Notes under the pieces: model-generated
The model's database searches: none
What the model saw: only the letters and a program-made list of their open reading frames with translations
What the model was told of the DNA's origin: nothing
DNA from: Stratiformator vulcanicus
Lineage (GTDB): Bacteria > Planctomycetota > Planctomycetia > Planctomycetales > Planctomycetaceae
Assembly: GCF_007744515.1 (NCBI RefSeq)
Contig: NZ_CP036268.1
Span: 1,713,712 to 1,777,711 of the forward strand
Direction of reading: 5' to 3'
Length of the DNA: 64,000 nt
In this document: positions 43,703 to 53,719 of the stretch, one piece after another
Layout: each line of letters starts with the position of its first letter
How positions within the stretch are numbered: position 1 is the stretch's first letter
Program-made: the position numbers and the translations under genes

Positions 43703-46700
43703 ATGTCGATTCCCGAATTTAGCGTTCGCAATAGTGTCTTGGTCAACATGCTGATGTTGTTGACGCTGATCGGCGGCGTCATTTTCGCGTTGACGCTCGT
43801 GAAAGAAATGTTCCCGGAGATTCGGCCGAATCGCATCAGCATTTCCGCGGTGTACCGCGGTGTTCAGCCTGCCGAAATGGAAAAGGCGATCACGATTAAG
43901 GTCGAAGAGGCGGTGCGCGACGTTGAAGGGGTCGAAAAGGTATCCTCGACCGTCTCAGAAGGCATCTCGTCCACCGTCGTGACGTTGCTGCAGGAAGTCG
44001 ACGATACCGACGCGGCCATGCAGCTTATTAAGAATCGGGTCGACGCGCTCGAGGATCTGCCCGACGATCTCGACAAGATCACCGTCGACAAGATGGAGCC
44101 GAAACTGCCGGTCATTATCGTCGCGATGTTCGGCGACGGCAGCGAAACAGAATTAAAACAAGCCGCGCGGGATTTGCGTGATGAATTGCTTCGGCTTCCC
44201 GGAGTGAGCGAAATTGAACTCGGCGGAACGCGCGACGATGAAATCAGCATCGAAGTTCGCCCTGAAAAATTAATCGAATACGACGTCACGTTCGACGAAG
44301 TCGCCGACGCGATCAGTCGCACGAATCTCGACGTTTCCGGTGGGCAACTCGAAGGAGTCCGCACTCGAACCGCAGTTCGTACTCTTGGGGAACGAACGCG
44401 GGGCCGCGACCTCGAAGACCTCGTTGTGCGGACCGAACTGGACGGACGAAAAATCTACTTACGCGACGTCGCAAAAATCATTGATGGATTTATCGACTCG
44501 GATCTCGAAAGTTATTTCAACGGTCGACGAGCCGCCAATTGTACCGTCTATAAAACGAAGTCGCAGGATGCGATTCAAATCTCGCGGTTGGTGAAAGCCT
44601 ATGTCGCCGGGCAAATGGACCAGCCTTTCGATCCTTACGGATTTGCGAAAGCGGCCGAGGCCGCTTGGTATGCAAAGCCGGTCGCCTATTTCACGGCACT
44701 CTCCGACTATCTGGTCATTAAGATCGGCGGCTTGCCTGACCCGGGCGAAGTTTATGAACAAAGCCGTCGCAATCCGCCGCGACACGGTTTCGATCTCGCG
44801 CTTCACAACGATCTCGCCCGCTTTGTTGAAGGCCGGCTCGACCTGCTGACCCGCAATGGACTGCAGGGCCTCGTGCTGGTGGTGATCTCCCTGAACCTGT
44901 TCTTGAACTGGCGCGTCGCATTCTGGGCGGCGATCGGCCTGCCGGTTTCGTTTCTCGGCACATTTATCGTGATGTGGTTGTTCGGAGTCTCGATCAACCT
45001 TCTGAGCATGTTCGGGTTGATTATTGTGCTCGGGATTATTGTCGATGACGCGATCGTGATCGGCGAGAATATCTATCGGCACGTGGAAGAGGGAATGCCC
45101 GCGATGCGGGCCGCCGTGGTCGGGGCCGAAGAAGTCATGTGGCCGGTCATCACCGCGGTCACAACGACCGTGGCCGCCTTTGCCCCGCTCTTTGCGATCG
45201 GTGGGCAGATCGGCACGTTCATGGGTCAGTTGCCGCTCGTGGTGATTGCGGCGCTATCGGTCTCACTGGTCGAAGCGATCATTATTCTGCCGAGCCACCT
45301 CTCCCATTTTCCCGACAAACAGGAAATTGAACGGCAGCGGATTAAGCGCCGACAGTGGTGGGTCACCCGCAAGCTCGATGCGTTGCAGGATGCCCGCGAC
45401 CGATTTATTCAAAACGTATTGATGACCTCTTACGAACGCCTACTTCGCTTCGCACTGAGGTGGCGCTACGTGACCGTGGCGACCTGCATGGCCACGGTCG
45501 TCGCGACATGCGGTCTCGTCGCGGGAGAGATTGTGCCCTTCGTATTCGTCCAAAAGATGGACAGCGAATCGCTCATCTGTGAGTTGGAATTGCCCGTCGG
45601 CACACCCAGTGATCGCGTCCGCCGCGTGACCGATCGCATCAGTGAATTCGCCAAAGAGCAGCCGGAAGTCGTCAACATTCAAGCTTACGTCGGCGAAATC
45701 TACGACATCGGCGGAGCGGGCGCGACGGGCGTCTCGCAGCAATCCCACCGGGGACAATTGATCATTGAATTAATGGCGGCCGATCAACGTGATCGCGCCG
45801 GGGGGCGATCGAGTGAAGGCGTGCTCGTCGAATTTCGTGAATTCTCTCGCCAGCTGAAAGGAATTAATTCCATTAAATGGTCGGCGATGTCGGGCGGGCC
45901 GGGCGGAAATGATATTGAAATTAATGTGACGGGTCCCGACTTCGCCGAAAATGTCCTCGTCGCCGATCAATTGAAGCAGGAACTTGCCCAATTCGAAGGG
46001 ACCTATGACCTCGACGACAATCATGATGAGGGTAAGCGAGAGGTTCGGCTGCGGCTGCGTGATTCCGCAAGATCGACCGGCATCACGACCGCCGACCTGG
46101 GCTCTCACGTGCGGTCGGCCACGTTCGGCCGTGAAGCGTTGCGGGTCACGCGGAACCGCGAAGATGTTCGCATCATGGTCCGGTATCCGGAACGATTTCG
46201 CGAAGACATCTCGAATATTGAAACGATGTACCTTCCTTCGCCCGGCGGAAGCGGAATGCGGTCGTGGGTACCGCTTCCGGCGGTGGCCGAAGTTACAATG
46301 TCCGAAAGCGATACCGTGATCCATCGCGCCGATCAACAGCGCTCGGTCACGGTCACCGGCAGTGTGAACGACGAGGTCGCCAAGTCATCGGAAATCCTGG
46401 CCGCGGTGGCTGAGGAGTTCGATGAAACCATGCGGCCCGACCATCCCTCGGTCCGCCTCGAATTTCGAGGAAAGATGGAAGAGCAGGGGAAAGCATTTGC
46501 CGGCTTGAGAGTAGCCGGGCCGGTCGCGCTGCTGTCGATTTACATGCTATTGGCGGGGTTGTTTCGCTCTTACGTGCAGCCACTGGTCGTAATGACGGCG
46601 ATTCCGTTCGGGATCGAAGGCGCCATTCTGGGCCACTGGATCACCGGCAATCCGCTGACGATTCTCAGTTGCATCGGGTTGGTCGCCCTCTCCGGGATTT

Positions 46701-47053
46701 TAGTCAACGATTCACTCGTGCTGGTTGACTTCATTAACGCTCGAGTCCGTGCTGGATTGAGTCCTTTCGAAGCGAGCGTGCAAGGGGCTAAGCTCCGATT
46801 GCGAGCCATTTTGCTTACCACTTTAACGACCGCCGCCGGCCTGACGCCGTTAATGTTCGAGACCAGCTTTCAGGCCAAGTTCTTAATTCCCATGGCAGTC
46901 ACCCTGACGTACGGCCTCATCTTCGCCACCGCTCTGACCCTAATTATCGTTCCCGCGATGAACATGATCGCCGAAGACCTCTTCGGCGGCATGATGGCAT
47001 CCGGCGAGGTGGAAGATGTGGGTGCCCAGCAGGAGAAGCCTGTCGCCGTTTGA
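43703..47053 (+). CDS. RND-family efflux pump inner-membrane protein (AcrB-like)
   Basis: The 1116-residue protein has the RND layout: first helix (about 9-33), periplasmic porter domain, a helix block with [20 protein letters not shown] (the paired Asp of the proton relay), a second porter domain and a second helix block ending near [13 protein letters not shown]. It exchanges protons for substrate in tripartite pumps. Substrate class cannot be told. No membrane-fusion or TolC-type gene is adjacent, so it must use a partner from elsewhere. It starts 96 bp after purQ. Confidence 0.93.
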
Positions 47054-47866: not shown

Positions 47867-48778
47867 ATGTCTCGTTTTTCAGCCCGTCTGATTCGCCTGA
47901 GCCTGACTTGCGGCGTCCTTGCTTTACTCACGCCGACTGCTCACGCGCAGGACGGTGCTGATGCCCCAATCGATCCGGAATTCTTGGAGATTCAGCGGCT
48001 CTTCAATTCGATCGAGTGGACCTACGGCCCGGCGACTGCCCCGATCGGCGATAATGCGTCGATCGAGCTTACCGAAGGTTATCAAATTACCGGCTCGGCT
48101 GGTTCGCAGGCGTGGAACAAGATTACGCAGAACCCGCCGGACAGCACGGTTGCCACCTTGATGCCGTCCGACGATGAATCGAGCTGGTTCATCGCATTCG
48201 AGTTCGAAGACTCCGGCTACGTCAAAGACGACGAGGCAGCAGACCTCGATGCCGATGCCATTTTGAAGTCGATGCAGCAGGGCACCGAAGCCTCGAATAA
48301 GTACCGTCAGCAACAGGGTTGGGGTGCGATTCATGTCGACGGCTGGATCGTAGAGCCGACCTACGACGAGGAAACCAATCACCTCGTATGGGCGACCGAT
48401 CTGCGGGCGGACGATGGCGGACGAAGCGCGAATTACAGCATTCGGCTGCTCGGGCGCCGCGGCGTGATGAACGCTATTCTGGTTTGCGATCCGGAAAAGA
48501 TGTCGGAAATTCTGCCCAAAGTGAACCAACTGCTCGAAGGATTCGAATACAACGATGGCGAGCGATACGCCCAATGGACGACCGGTGACAAGGTTGCCGC
48601 TTATGGGCTGACCGGCTTGATCACCGGCGGCGCATTCGTGGCGGCTGCCAAGACTGGCCTGCTCGCCAAGTTGGGGATGTTGCTCGCCAAAGGCGGCAAA
48701 GCGATCGTCTTTGTGATTCTGGCCATTGGAGCGGGAATTTATAAGCTCTTTGGTGGACGAAGCAGCCAAGCTTCGTAG
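47867..48778 (+). CDS. DUF2167 membrane-anchored protein
   Basis: The 303-residue product has a signal peptide (ending AHAQ), a soluble DUF2167-type domain (IELTEGYQITGSAGSQAWNK; GWGAIHVDGWIVEPTYDEET followed by HLVWATDL) and C-terminal hydrophobic helices (about 240-260 and 272-295). DUF2167 proteins occur in many Gram-negative bacteria and have unknown roles. A strong intrinsic terminator follows at 48824-48859. Confidence 0.85.
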   Translation: MSRFSARLIRLSLTCGVLALLTPTAHAQDGADAPIDPEFLEIQRLFNSIEWTYGPATAPIGDNASIELTEGYQITGSAGSQAWNKITQNPPDSTVATLMPSDDESSWFIAFEFEDSGYVKDDEAADLDADAILKSMQQGTEASNKYRQQQGWGAIHVDGWIVEPTYDEETNHLVWATDLRADDGGRSANYSIRLLGRRGVMNAILVCDPEKMSEILPKVNQLLEGFEYNDGERYAQWTTGDKVAAYGLTGLITGGAFVAAAKTGLLAKLGMLLAKGGKAIVFVILAIGAGIYKLFGGRSSQAS

Positions 48779-48946: not shown

Positions 48947-49873
48947 ATGGACTTCTATCGGCTCAGTGATACTGAACTCATTCTGCTGATCCTGGCAGCG
49001 CTCTATTTATTTGAGTGCGTGCTGTGGCTGGCTCCCGGAAAATCAATCTTCGGAGCCTCGTTCGGTCGCCCGCGCTGCCGAGTGGCTCACTCCGCGCTCA
49101 GCAATGACCGTGGAAGTTTCGTACTGCTCGGCCTCGCCCCGTGGTCAAAGGAATTCATCGTTGATGCCACCTCCATTCGAGATGCGGACGCCGCATTCGA
49201 TGTCGAAGCCGCGCGGGAGCGTTATCAAGAAATTCGACGGGTCACCGGGTCACTCGGTTTTCTCTGCACGTTGCAATTCTCCCTCGTATTCATCCTCGGC
49301 CCCGTCTTACTTTATGACCCGAAAGTTGTGATCGGCGGGCGGACCGTATGGGCTTATCTTCTCTTATGCCTGTGCTATTGGTTGTTCATTATTGGGCTGT
49401 ATTGGCTGGCGCATCGGTCGCTCTATCGAGAGAAAATGGGAGAGCGTTGGAAGAAGACGCTCATGATGCTTTGCTCGCCGGGGACAGCGATGCGGGCGGC
49501 GACGAACGTGGGGATGAATGCGTTCGACGGCTTTCATCCGTTGACCGTGGCGTGCGCGATCTGCGATCCGCGTGAATTCCAGAAACAGGCGGCCGAGGCC
49601 ATCCGATTTGCCTATTTTCCTGCCGAGGCCGAAGAGGCAGACTGTCCCGCCACCTTCCGTGATTTGCTTGAAGCGGTTGCACGGTTGGGCGGCGTCGATC
49701 CTGCTGACGTCTTAAAGCAACCGATGGCTGACCCCGATGCCCTCGCTTGGTGCAGGCGCTGCAATGGCCAATCGACGACGCACGATGAAACCTGCCCGAA
49801 CTGCGGCAGCCGCCACATGGTTGAGTTCGAGACGCCGGACGATACGCCGGTGGGTGACTTGGCTAAGGCTTGA
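48947..49873 (+). CDS. Membrane protein with C-terminal zinc ribbon
   Basis: The 308-residue product has membrane helices at about 9-27, 100-125 and 135-155. The C-terminus carries CRRC and CPNC knuckles spaced by about 13 residues (WCRRCNGQSTTHDETCPNC), a zinc-ribbon motif. The first knuckle is followed by a disordered acidic tail. No wider family is recognised. It converges on the FtsX-type permease gene. Confidence 0.72.
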   Translation: MDFYRLSDTELILLILAALYLFECVLWLAPGKSIFGASFGRPRCRVAHSALSNDRGSFVLLGLAPWSKEFIVDATSIRDADAAFDVEAARERYQEIRRVTGSLGFLCTLQFSLVFILGPVLLYDPKVVIGGRTVWAYLLLCLCYWLFIIGLYWLAHRSLYREKMGERWKKTLMMLCSPGTAMRAATNVGMNAFDGFHPLTVACAICDPREFQKQAAEAIRFAYFPAEAEEADCPATFRDLLEAVARLGGVDPADVLKQPMADPDALAWCRRCNGQSTTHDETCPNCGSRHMVEFETPDDTPVGDLAKA

Positions 49874-49899: not shown

Positions 49900-51279
49900 C
49901 TACTCCATCAGCGAGTCGGCGACATCGGCTTGATAGGCTCGCAGCCCGGGTAGGAAGCCTGCGAGGACCGCGATCACGACCAAGGCCGGGATGATATAGA
50001 GTTCGAGTGGGTCAAACGCGAGCGGGTCGATTAAGAGGTCGGTCATATCGCTGATCTTCGACGCCGCAGCGACGACCAGGGCGTGTCCTAATGCGAGTCC
50101 GACGAGGCCGCCCCCGACGCACAGCAGCAGGGATTCAATTAAGATGATCGAGAAGACCGTTTCGCGGCGTGCGCCGAGCGCCCGCATGATAGCGATCTCA
50201 CGCAGTCGTTCGGACATTGAATTATAGATACTGACGAAAATCCCGACGCCGGACACGATAAGGATGACAACCGTCAATGCGAGCAGTCCGTTGCGGACGT
50301 TTCCCACAATTTGCCGCTGAATCCGCGCGATTGGGCGGATCGGGTTGACCGCCTGCACTTTGTAGCCGCTATTTAATTGGGCGGCGAAAATCGGGACGGC
50401 GGCGGTCGCACCCCCGGTGGGCGAGCCGATTTTTACGAGAATGGAGGTGACTTCCTTTTGGATATCGGGAACCTCTTCTTCGTGAGCTCCATGATCGTGC
50501 CCGTGATCATGGTGGGCGTGGTCATGATGGGAATGGTCGTGGCGGCCGCCGTGTTTCTCGATTTCGGCTTCCATTTCGGGGCTGCCGTCGGCGAACGGCT
50601 CCAGACCATTAAATTCTCGCCAAGAGTTAATCGACTCTTCCATCGGCTTTTCGTGGCCGGAAATCAGATAGAAACCGTTGAGTTGCACGAAGGCGACCCG
50701 GTCGTTGGGCGTGCCGGTCGGGGCTAAGACCCCGACGATCGTAAATTCTTCATCGTGAACATGACCATCGGCCCCGCCGTGCACCATTTTAAACTTCGAC
50801 CCGACCTTCCAACCGTTTTCGCGGGCGACGGTCGAACCGATCACCGCATCGAACGAATCGCGAAGGCCTCTGCCGTCGATGCGATAGGGCCGATCGGGGC
50901 CGTAGCCGAGTTTAAAGTAGCGAGATACCGTGCCGACGATCGGGAAGCTGCCCTCCTGTGTGACGTCACCAAACGCAACGGGCACGGCCTGTTCGATGAG
51001 CGGGTTCTCTTGCAGTTGCTTGTAATAAAGGAAGGGCAGATTCTCGACCGGCGCGCCGATGTGATAAATCGTGCTGAGGACGAGCTGAGTATCAGAACCT
51101 TTGGGGCCGATGATCAGGTCGAAGGCCGTCGATCGCTGCGAGAACGCCCGATTGATGACGCCGGCGATGAGCAGGACGGCCACCATCAGCATCACACCGA
51201 GCGCGACGCTCAGGCCGGTCAGCGAAGAAGCCAAGGCCCGTTGACGCAAACTCTTAATTGCGATCGAAAAGAGAGACAT
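49900..51279 (-). CDS. FtsX/MacB-type ABC permease with histidine-rich loop
   Basis: The 459-residue product has one N-terminal helix (about 20-42), a large periplasmic domain (about 45-320) and three C-terminal helices with GIFVSIYNSMSERLREIAIM, followed by RALGARRETVF, the FtsX-family signature. Inside the periplasmic domain there is an insertion of 24 residues, 243-266, with 12 histidines alternating with Asp, Gly and Ala. Such loops bind zinc, nickel or copper in other transporters. The paired ATPase is 123 bp upstream on the same strand. Family members handle lipoproteins, lipids, peptides or macrolides, and the substrate here is unknown. Confidence 0.88.
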   Translation of the reverse strand: MSLFSIAIKSLRQRALASSLTGLSVALGVMLMVAVLLIAGVINRAFSQRSTAFDLIIGPKGSDTQLVLSTIYHIGAPVENLPFLYYKQLQENPLIEQAVPVAFGDVTQEGSFPIVGTVSRYFKLGYGPDRPYRIDGRGLRDSFDAVIGSTVARENGWKVGSKFKMVHGGADGHVHDEEFTIVGVLAPTGTPNDRVAFVQLNGFYLISGHEKPMEESINSWREFNGLEPFADGSPEMEAEIEKHGGRHDHSHHDHAHHDHGHDHGAHEEEVPDIQKEVTSILVKIGSPTGGATAAVPIFAAQLNSGYKVQAVNPIRPIARIQRQIVGNVRNGLLALTVVILIVSGVGIFVSIYNSMSERLREIAIMRALGARRETVFSIILIESLLLCVGGGLVGLALGHALVVAAASKISDMTDLLIDPLAFDPLELYIIPALVVIAVLAGFLPGLRAYQADVADSLME

Positions 51280-51402: not shown

Positions 51403-52089
51403 TTAGACGGCAGCTCCCAAGGGGGCCGCGGCCTTGTTGAAGTCGACCAGTTTTTCGACGCGGTCGAATTGTTCAGCGACGGCGGGAGCGTGCGTGACGA
51501 GCAGCAACGTGACGTTCTGCTCGCCGCAGGCGCTTCGAATGAGTTCGAGGACGTTCTGCTGATTGGCGGAGTCGACGTTCGCCGTCGGTTCGTCGGCGAG
51601 CATCAGCGAGGGGCTATTCGCCAGGGCCCGTGCGACCGCGACTCGCTGCCGTTCGCCCACGGAGAGTTGAGCGGGTTTATTGCCGAGGCGGTGACTCAGT
51701 CCGACACGCGAAAGCAGTTCGGTCGCCCGCGAACGATCCGACTTCCCGCCGGAAAAGCTCATCCCGAGCAGGACATTTTCCAAGGCGGTAAATGCCGGGA
51801 GCAGATTGAACGTTTGGAAGACGAAGCCAATACGCTCGGCCCGAAAGCGGTCTCGGGCTGGCTCCGAAAGTCGGCTCACATCGACGTTATCGATGAGCAC
51901 CTGCCCGCTGTCCGGCGATCGGATTCCTGCGATGACGTTCAACAGCGTCGTCTTGCCACAACCGCTGGAGCCAAGCAGCACCGCCTGCTCACCACCCCGC
52001 ATTTCGAATCGTTCAATATCGAGCACGGGGACGGGGGTGCCGTCCGGTTGGCGGTACGACTTTTTCAGATTCTCGATCAACAGCGACAT
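51403..52089 (-). CDS. ABC transporter ATP-binding protein, LolD/MacB type
   Basis: The ATG at 52089 has a near-perfect GGAGGTGAT upstream. The 228-residue ATPase has Walker A GSSGCGKTT, signature LSVGERQRVAVARAL, Walker B LMLADEPTANVD and switch His in LVTHAP. Its sequence fits the LolD/MacB/FtsE group that works with FtsX-type permeases, here the histidine-rich one downstream. Confidence 0.93.
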   Translation of the reverse strand: MSLLIENLKKSYRQPDGTPVPVLDIERFEMRGGEQAVLLGSSGCGKTTLLNVIAGIRSPDSGQVLIDNVDVSRLSEPARDRFRAERIGFVFQTFNLLPAFTALENVLLGMSFSGGKSDRSRATELLSRVGLSHRLGNKPAQLSVGERQRVAVARALANSPSLMLADEPTANVDSANQQNVLELIRSACGEQNVTLLLVTHAPAVAEQFDRVEKLVDFNKAAAPLGAAV

Positions 52090-52263
52090 CAATCACCTCC
52101 GTTGTGCGGTTCCCCCGACTACGTCGAACCGGGACGAGGTGTTGGCGAGTTATCTGTGATGTTCTGGCGAATCGCAAATGATCGCGGCGCAATAACGCGT
52201 GCATTTCGACGAGCACATTTCCGGTCGACCCCAGACTGGCGGCTAACAGCTATCATCTCTGGC

Positions 52264-52303
52264 CTCTCGACTCTTGTCTCTCGACTCTTGTCTCTCGACT
52301 CCC
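52264..52303. repeat. 14-bp tandem repeat built of two heptamers
   Basis: CTCTCGACTCTTGT is repeated twice and then partly a third time. It lies between the ATPase and egtB genes, about 90 bp before the egtB start. The unit is two seven-base halves. Confidence 0.75.

Positions 52304-52393: not shown

Positions 52394-53719
<1,326 letters not shown>

Follow-up and report, generated by a model that had tools for sequence, protein, structure and literature searches.

Which substrate is moved by an ABC permease that carries 12 histidines within 24 residues? The question is raised by a gene of Stratiformator vulcanicus that is located on the minus strand at 49900..51279 of the window, i.e., the whole stretch of 64,000 nucleotides that was analysed. 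A sequence-only reading, which gave no strand, had described the product as an FtsX-type ABC permease, and both the coordinates and the assignment are correct. The 459 aa, ZrgB/PA4065-like protein combines a MacB-type periplasmic core (Pfam MacB_PCD, residues 18-203) with an FtsX C-terminal domain (residues 335-450), each scoring above its cut-off. Its AlphaFold model, built from 51 sequences, has a pLDDT of 87.6 and contains long helices at residues 15-47, 314-357, 372-413 and 425-450, with a soluble domain between the first and the remaining three.

In a Foldseek search with this model, MacB (5gko, E 8.5e-16) is the top match, accompanied by chains of LolCDE. The best VIA-align match is 5xu1_M (Z 22.7, rmsd 6.6, 354 aligned residues), followed by LolE-type chains (Z ~20), chain 9rld_E of LolCDE (Z 19.9), the heme exporter HrtB (Z 19.6) and MacB (Z ~19). 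A fold that is common to MacB and LolCDE shows no function for the permease, and the curated NCBIfam models reject several family names: the permease reaches 40.7 bits against a cut-off of 966 for the MacB macrolide exporter, in addition to having its ATPase encoded by a separate gene rather than fused, 22.4 bits against 362 for LolC/LolE, and 21.0 to 23.2 bits against 225 to 255 for the cell division protein FtsX. DevC and YbbP likewise score far under their curated cut-offs, and a phage search gave no match that would point to a phage origin.

The ATPase gene (51403..52089, minus strand) is found just upstream of the permease gene, with a gap of 123 bases, and is preceded by a ribosome-binding-like GGAGGTG at 52094-52100. 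It encodes a 228 aa protein, LolD-like by score, with Walker A, signature, Walker B and H-loop motifs. The gene pair itself is observed, and permease and ATPase probably work together as a ZrgB/ZrgC-type (PA4065/PA4064) ABC machine. The window shows no other component gene next to the pair. On one side lies a plus-strand gene (48947-49873) for a protein without a good family match; on the other, adjoining the ATPase gene on the opposite strand, a gene for an EgtB-type ergothioneine biosynthesis protein (52394-53719, plus strand; TIGR03440, 572 bits against a cut-off of 360). The region between the ATPase start and egtB contains short repeats of GTCGAGAGACAAGA-like units (~52260-52300). Farther away, the window encodes an RND efflux permease of 1116 aa (43703-47053; ACR_tran, E 7.7e-180) and a DUF2167 protein of 303 aa (47867-48778; E 8.4e-70).

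The histidine-rich loop comprises residues 243-266 (50482..50553, minus strand) and is predicted to be disordered. It consists of 12 His, 4 Asp and 4 Gly in 24 residues, exactly the histidine count given by the sequence-only reading, and is beyond chance: at the His fraction of 1.8% found in the 39 non-overlapping window ORFs of at least 200 aa, the probability of 12 or more His in 24 residues is 2.7e-15 per position, and the next-highest density in these ORFs is 4 in 24. The loop is also the lowest-confidence part of the AlphaFold model (pLDDT <50 at residues 227-231, 252-257 and 259-264). The order of helix 15-47, soluble domain and three helices from residue 314 on resembles that in MacB and LolE, an analogy that places the loop in the periplasmic domain. 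A simple DNA repeat is ruled out as its origin by the mixed codons (7 CAC and 5 CAT for His; 2 GAC and 2 GAT for Asp) and by Tandem Repeats Finder, which detects only a single weak 15-base array (2.7 copies, 76% matches). Codon mixture and chance probability together point to selection at the protein level, or to drift of a long-standing protein feature.

Conservation of the loop was analysed in 81 planctomycete sequences, i.e., the window gene together with 80 named loci, which rank best among 469 relatives; the set includes near-copies, and several loci belong to the same genomes as the 59-genome set considered below. Within residues 210-277, at least five His are present in 45 sequences and at least three in 55, while 18 contain none. 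On a tree of 102 sequences, made without the loop, a minimum of 11 changes is needed for the His-rich state, set at four His or above. The loop thus appears to be a labile appendage that has been enriched in His repeatedly. His-rich loops occur at the same place in relatives from Planctomycetes, Rhizobiaceae, Paracoccaceae/Roseobacteraceae and Azospirillum, and the earlier view that they are foreign to such permeases does not hold for this sub-family. Nor is the loop supported as the key metal feature, as had been proposed with conservation in orthologues as the check: it lacks His in 18 of the 81 sequences and its His-rich state is unstable on the tree, while absence from close orthologues had been named as the refuting condition. 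The function therefore cannot rest on the loop alone.

Four histidines outside the loop are far more constant. H167 (codon 50779..50781) ends the strand 162-167 and is His in 80 of the 81 planctomycete sequences, the sole exception being a Cys in locus L150, and in all 21 relatives from other phyla. These 21 were taken from plasmid records of Pseudomonadota and Deinococcota. Loci L161 and L168 are almost identical. H175 (50755..50757), at the start of strand 174-185, is invariant in both sets, and in the AlphaFold model H167 and H175 flank the hairpin turn between the two strands. H209 (50653..50655) lies directly before the variable loop and is present in 81/81 planctomycete sequences; the 21 other relatives all have a His two residues earlier. 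H399 (50083..50085), in the third transmembrane helix (372-413), is found in 80/81 planctomycete sequences, the exception (L135) being cut off by its contig, and is not conserved outside Planctomycetes. All four codons are read from the minus strand. In six FtsX-type paralogues that the genome also encodes, neither position 167 nor position 175 is a His, and neither the triad nor the loop was found. H167, H175 and H209 probably form, or contribute to, a metal site, with zinc as the most likely metal.

The choice of zinc derives from the nearest relatives. The closest characterised relative of the permease is PA4065/ZrgB: the two proteins find each other in searches and share 28% identity over nearly their whole length in a pairwise alignment. 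When PA4065 is searched against the S. vulcanicus genome, only the window gene is recovered, in two pieces (E 2.8e-27 and 1.4e-14), and nothing else of the FtsX kind is recovered at E 1e-3. The Zrg genes belong to the Zur regulon, and a passage in PMC9817125 describes that zinc deficiency in Vibrio parahaemolyticus raises expression of zrgE (DUF3299), zrgB, zrgC, zrgA and zrgD 76- to 206-fold; induction of the ZrgB and PA4065 operons by zinc starvation is reported in sections of PMC9817125, PMC11481552 and PMC9820375. In Vibrio cholerae, the system sustains growth when zinc is scarce and is read as a zinc importer (in part of PMC9820375), and a Pseudomonas aeruginosa PA4065 mutant performs worse in zinc-poor medium once other uptake systems are gone (in part of PMC11481552). 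The metal link drawn by the sequence-only reading is therefore retained in a modified form, in which kinship to ZrgB/PA4065 and the three near-invariant histidines make zinc most likely, and the loop is not supported as the key feature. With moderate confidence, the pair is proposed to be a zinc-handling ABC machine of the Zrg kind that lacks ZrgA and has a His arm on the permease itself.

It is unlikely that the machine instead serves a metal-unrelated substrate, such as a lipoprotein, a lipid or a peptide, and that its His-rich loop is neutral sequence of low complexity, gained and lost over time. The fold common to LolCDE and MacB, the 18 sequences with a His-free loop and the repeated state changes on the tree would suit this explanation, but the retention of H167, H175 and H209 across three bacterial groups, the repeated His enrichment of a variable loop and the regulation by zinc in the closest relatives that have been studied are left unexplained by it.

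The literature on the PA4065 system itself is divided, as ZrgBC/PA4064-PA4065 is considered a zinc importer in V. cholerae (part of PMC9820375) and a pyochelin exporter in P. aeruginosa (part of PMC11481552). According to the passages on the PA4065 mutant in the latter source, ICP-MS revealed no relevant Zn change, which speaks against zinc handling, while pyochelin and cobalt accumulated, and the authors propose export of pyochelin(-Co). The window machine could by analogy export a metallophore or a metal complex, with the His features sensing or releasing the metal. Its MacB-type fold, with 5gko and 5xu1_M as best matches, agrees with such a role, as do three alphaproteobacterial relatives from Rhodobacterales (two of them near-copies), in which the genes for a biotin/lipoyl-binding protein, perhaps an export adaptor, the ATPase, the permease and a DUF3299 protein follow each other. 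The window, however, contains neither an adaptor nor a metallophore gene beside the pair, and the Vibrio system supports low-zinc growth, which makes this a distinctly unlikely explanation.

The zinc-handling machine has a candidate partner in the DUF3299 protein (OB-fold-like, ZrgE/PA4066 family), which co-occurs tightly with the permease. In the S. vulcanicus genome, a pair of DUF3299-type genes stands in a row with a CPFC gene at ~1.830-1.833 Mb (L051:6041-9134), ~67 kb from the permease. Both DUF3299-type proteins bear a CCFG motif, and the secreted CPFC protein has no Pfam match at 0.1. Among 59 genomes, a close permease match is present in 37/37 of the same family (S. vulcanicus included), as a full or split full-length match, and in 6/22 others of the class. 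The resulting 43 permease genomes, which are those of the same family plus any other with a best match at E 1e-20 or lower, were compared with the 16 remaining ones. A planctomycete profile of the first of the two DUF3299 types (A4) matches at E <1e-40 in 39/43 and 0/16, respectively, for which the Fisher p of 4e-11 is too good because related genomes are not independent. Outside the family, the profile is found in 6/6 permease-bearing genomes against 0/16 without the permease; within family f2, genome G058 has both permease and DUF3299, and the remaining f2 genomes have neither. The four permease genomes without a match at E 1e-40, which count against the zinc machine, have a completeness of 87, 86, 79 and 90%. 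In the 16 permease-free genomes, A4 yields weak matches (E 1e-7 to 1e-15), mostly to the N-terminal membrane part and in some cases to the DUF3299 part. The profile also matches PDB entry 4hsp (PA4066) with E 4.6e-5. The Pfam model for DUF3299 alone, which is found in 22/59 genomes, gives a much weaker picture.

The DUF3299 gene is at most 2 kb from the permease gene in 13 of the 39 genomes; one further genome has it at a distance of 8.8 kb. Across 88 loci, some of which are cut by contig ends and some of which represent the same genome twice, a DUF3299-type cluster follows within 6 kb downstream of the permease in 25, and a secreted CPFC protein (~425 aa) in 20. The CPFC family (A5) is less specific, being missing in permease genomes G045 and G058 and present in nine permease-free genomes.

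Beyond the Planctomycetes, a search of plasmids with the window protein returned 115 records, and those opened fall into a few operon kinds. The Zrg-type operon of Phaeobacter inhibens DSM 17395 comprises genes for a Fur regulator, a DUF2796 protein (ZrgA), the ATPase, the permease and a DUF3299 protein; similar operons occur in Sulfitobacter and Aeromonas. A P. aeruginosa record (L072, CP109682.1) contains DUF2796, ATPase, permease and DUF3299 genes. For its DUF2796 protein, the PDB matches are entries named PA4063, and for its DUF3299 protein the match is 4hsp, which is PA4066 according to part of PMC8561739; this identifies the operon as PA4063-PA4066. This "plasmid" record looks chromosomal, since PA4063-PA4066 are accompanied by ribD, nrdR and oprG, as does record L075 (NZ_AP026896.1), with 4.94 Mb. 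In Catenovulum, the DUF3299 gene diverges from the ATPase/permease pair.

A different order, consisting of alkaline phosphatase, a small secreted CPFC protein, ATPase and permease, is present in 10 of the 21 non-planctomycete relatives; three other records among the 21 carry no annotation. The cassettes (L073, L074, L077, L079, L162-L165, L167 and L170) recur in Alphaproteobacteria and Deinococcota, and the one in Paracoccus liaowanqingii (L170) is followed by a gene for the copper chaperone PCu(A)C. An alignment of 13 DUF3299-like proteins from different contexts contains six invariant positions, one of which is a Cys. Four small CPFC proteins align with the DUF3299 proteins and share this Cys, the only invariant one, at a mean column identity of 20%; none of the three that were tested has a DUF3299 Pfam match, and their kinship to DUF3299 therefore rests on a weak alignment. 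It is very unlikely that the machine supplies or recovers metal for secreted metalloenzymes, with a DUF3299-type protein as carrier to clients such as alkaline phosphatase, because, despite the cassette order and the shared Cys, the CPFC-DUF3299 alignment is weak, the alkaline phosphatase may merely share phosphate control, and the window has no alkaline phosphatase gene beside the pair.

The proposed zinc-handling machine would have to operate without ZrgA, although sections of PMC9820375 report that ZrgA is needed for Zrg function in V. cholerae. ZrgA (PF10986) has no match in the S. vulcanicus genome and none above the cut-off in any of the 59 genomes, among which there are two weak sub-cut-off matches; as a positive control, the same search recovered ZrgA in 3/3 records known to hold it. 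The His content of residues 195-277 varies with the genomic context: 1 to 3 His in the four ZrgA-linked permeases, 14 to 16 in the three beside the biotin/lipoyl-binding protein, and, among the alkaline phosphatase-linked permeases, 8 to 14 in 4/10 and 1 or 2 in 6/10. The Catenovulum permease, with no ZrgA annotated nearby, has 3. These counts are no more than suggestive of a complementarity in which either ZrgA or the permease loop would be present, and the ZrgA-linked permeases form one branch of the tree and are thus not independent in this respect. Also speaking against the zinc-handling reading are the many relatives in which the loop is absent or His-poor, and V. cholerae, where the His-rich loop of ZrgA is dispensable in vivo (part of PMC9820375).

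Regulation was addressed in 75 non-redundant regions upstream of the ATPase gene. No Zur-like box was seen there: the best match to a proteobacterial Zur consensus averages 8.19, against 8.28 for shuffled sequences, and no 8-mer is shared by more than 8 of the 75 regions. The missing box counts against the zinc machine, but it is compatible with zinc control through another motif. The genome contains one Fur-family gene and a ZnuA homologue.

If the pair does handle zinc, each machine would consist of two permeases, MacB-like in their periplasmic domains, and a pair of separate ATPases. The His-rich loop could serve as an accessory arm, gathering or buffering zinc ahead of the H167/H175/H209 site and handing it over to these three histidines, a task that may be fulfilled by the separate His-rich ZrgA in Vibrio and Pseudomonas. 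ATP hydrolysis would then drive a MacB/LolC-like movement of the periplasmic domains, by which the metal might be passed on, perhaps to or from the DUF3299 protein; alternatively, a partner that bears the metal, for example the DUF3299 protein itself, might be moved. The end point could be the cytoplasm or the periplasm, and the process import, export or delivery within the envelope. More tentatively, and with doubt prevailing, the Zrg-linked, alkaline phosphatase-linked and planctomycete branches may all belong to one family of ATP-driven envelope zinc shuttles, defined by the three-histidine site and a DUF3299/CPFC partner, in which the His-rich segment can move between ZrgA and the permease.

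Compared with known systems, the permease fold is like that of MacB (MacAB-TolC) and LolCDE, but the ATPase is a separate protein and the scores are far below the NCBIfam cut-offs. ZnuABC is also a zinc system with a His-rich segment, located in ZnuA (part of PMC8561739), but it uses another type of permease, and the ZnuA homologue of S. vulcanicus is encoded separately. The alkaline phosphatase-linked permeases of Deinococcus, Thermus, Rhizobium, Paracoccus and Azospirillum belong to the same family as the window permease, share its three histidines and have a His-rich loop in 4/10, but they form a separate branch of the tree (SH-aLRT 98), outside the Planctomycetes, and are accompanied by alkaline phosphatase and a small CPFC protein. 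A full-text search of open-access papers yielded no published name for them and no paper on a planctomycete member.

The closest resemblance is to ZrgABCDE/PA4063-PA4066, which likewise combines a separate ATPase with a four-helix MacB-type permease, and whose permeases share the three histidines. A ZrgE/PA4066-type DUF3299 protein is encoded in the S. vulcanicus genome, though distant from the pair, and adjoins the permease in part of its relatives. In contrast, ZrgA (DUF2796) is a component of ZrgABCDE that was not found here, and the window permease bears a His-rich loop where ZrgA-linked permeases have few histidines. This comparison places a zinc-type system in nearly every examined genome of one planctomycete family (37/37). 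It also names H167, H175, H209 and their equivalents as targets for mutation, and DUF3299 as the partner that goes with the permease across Planctomycetes. Because ZrgA is missing, the window system is not a strict member of ZrgABCDE; it is a new variant of the Zrg-type transporter, and such natural variants without ZrgA, with or without a His-rich arm, together with the residues and the partner named above, allow harmless organisms to be used for directly testing the dispute between importer and exporter.
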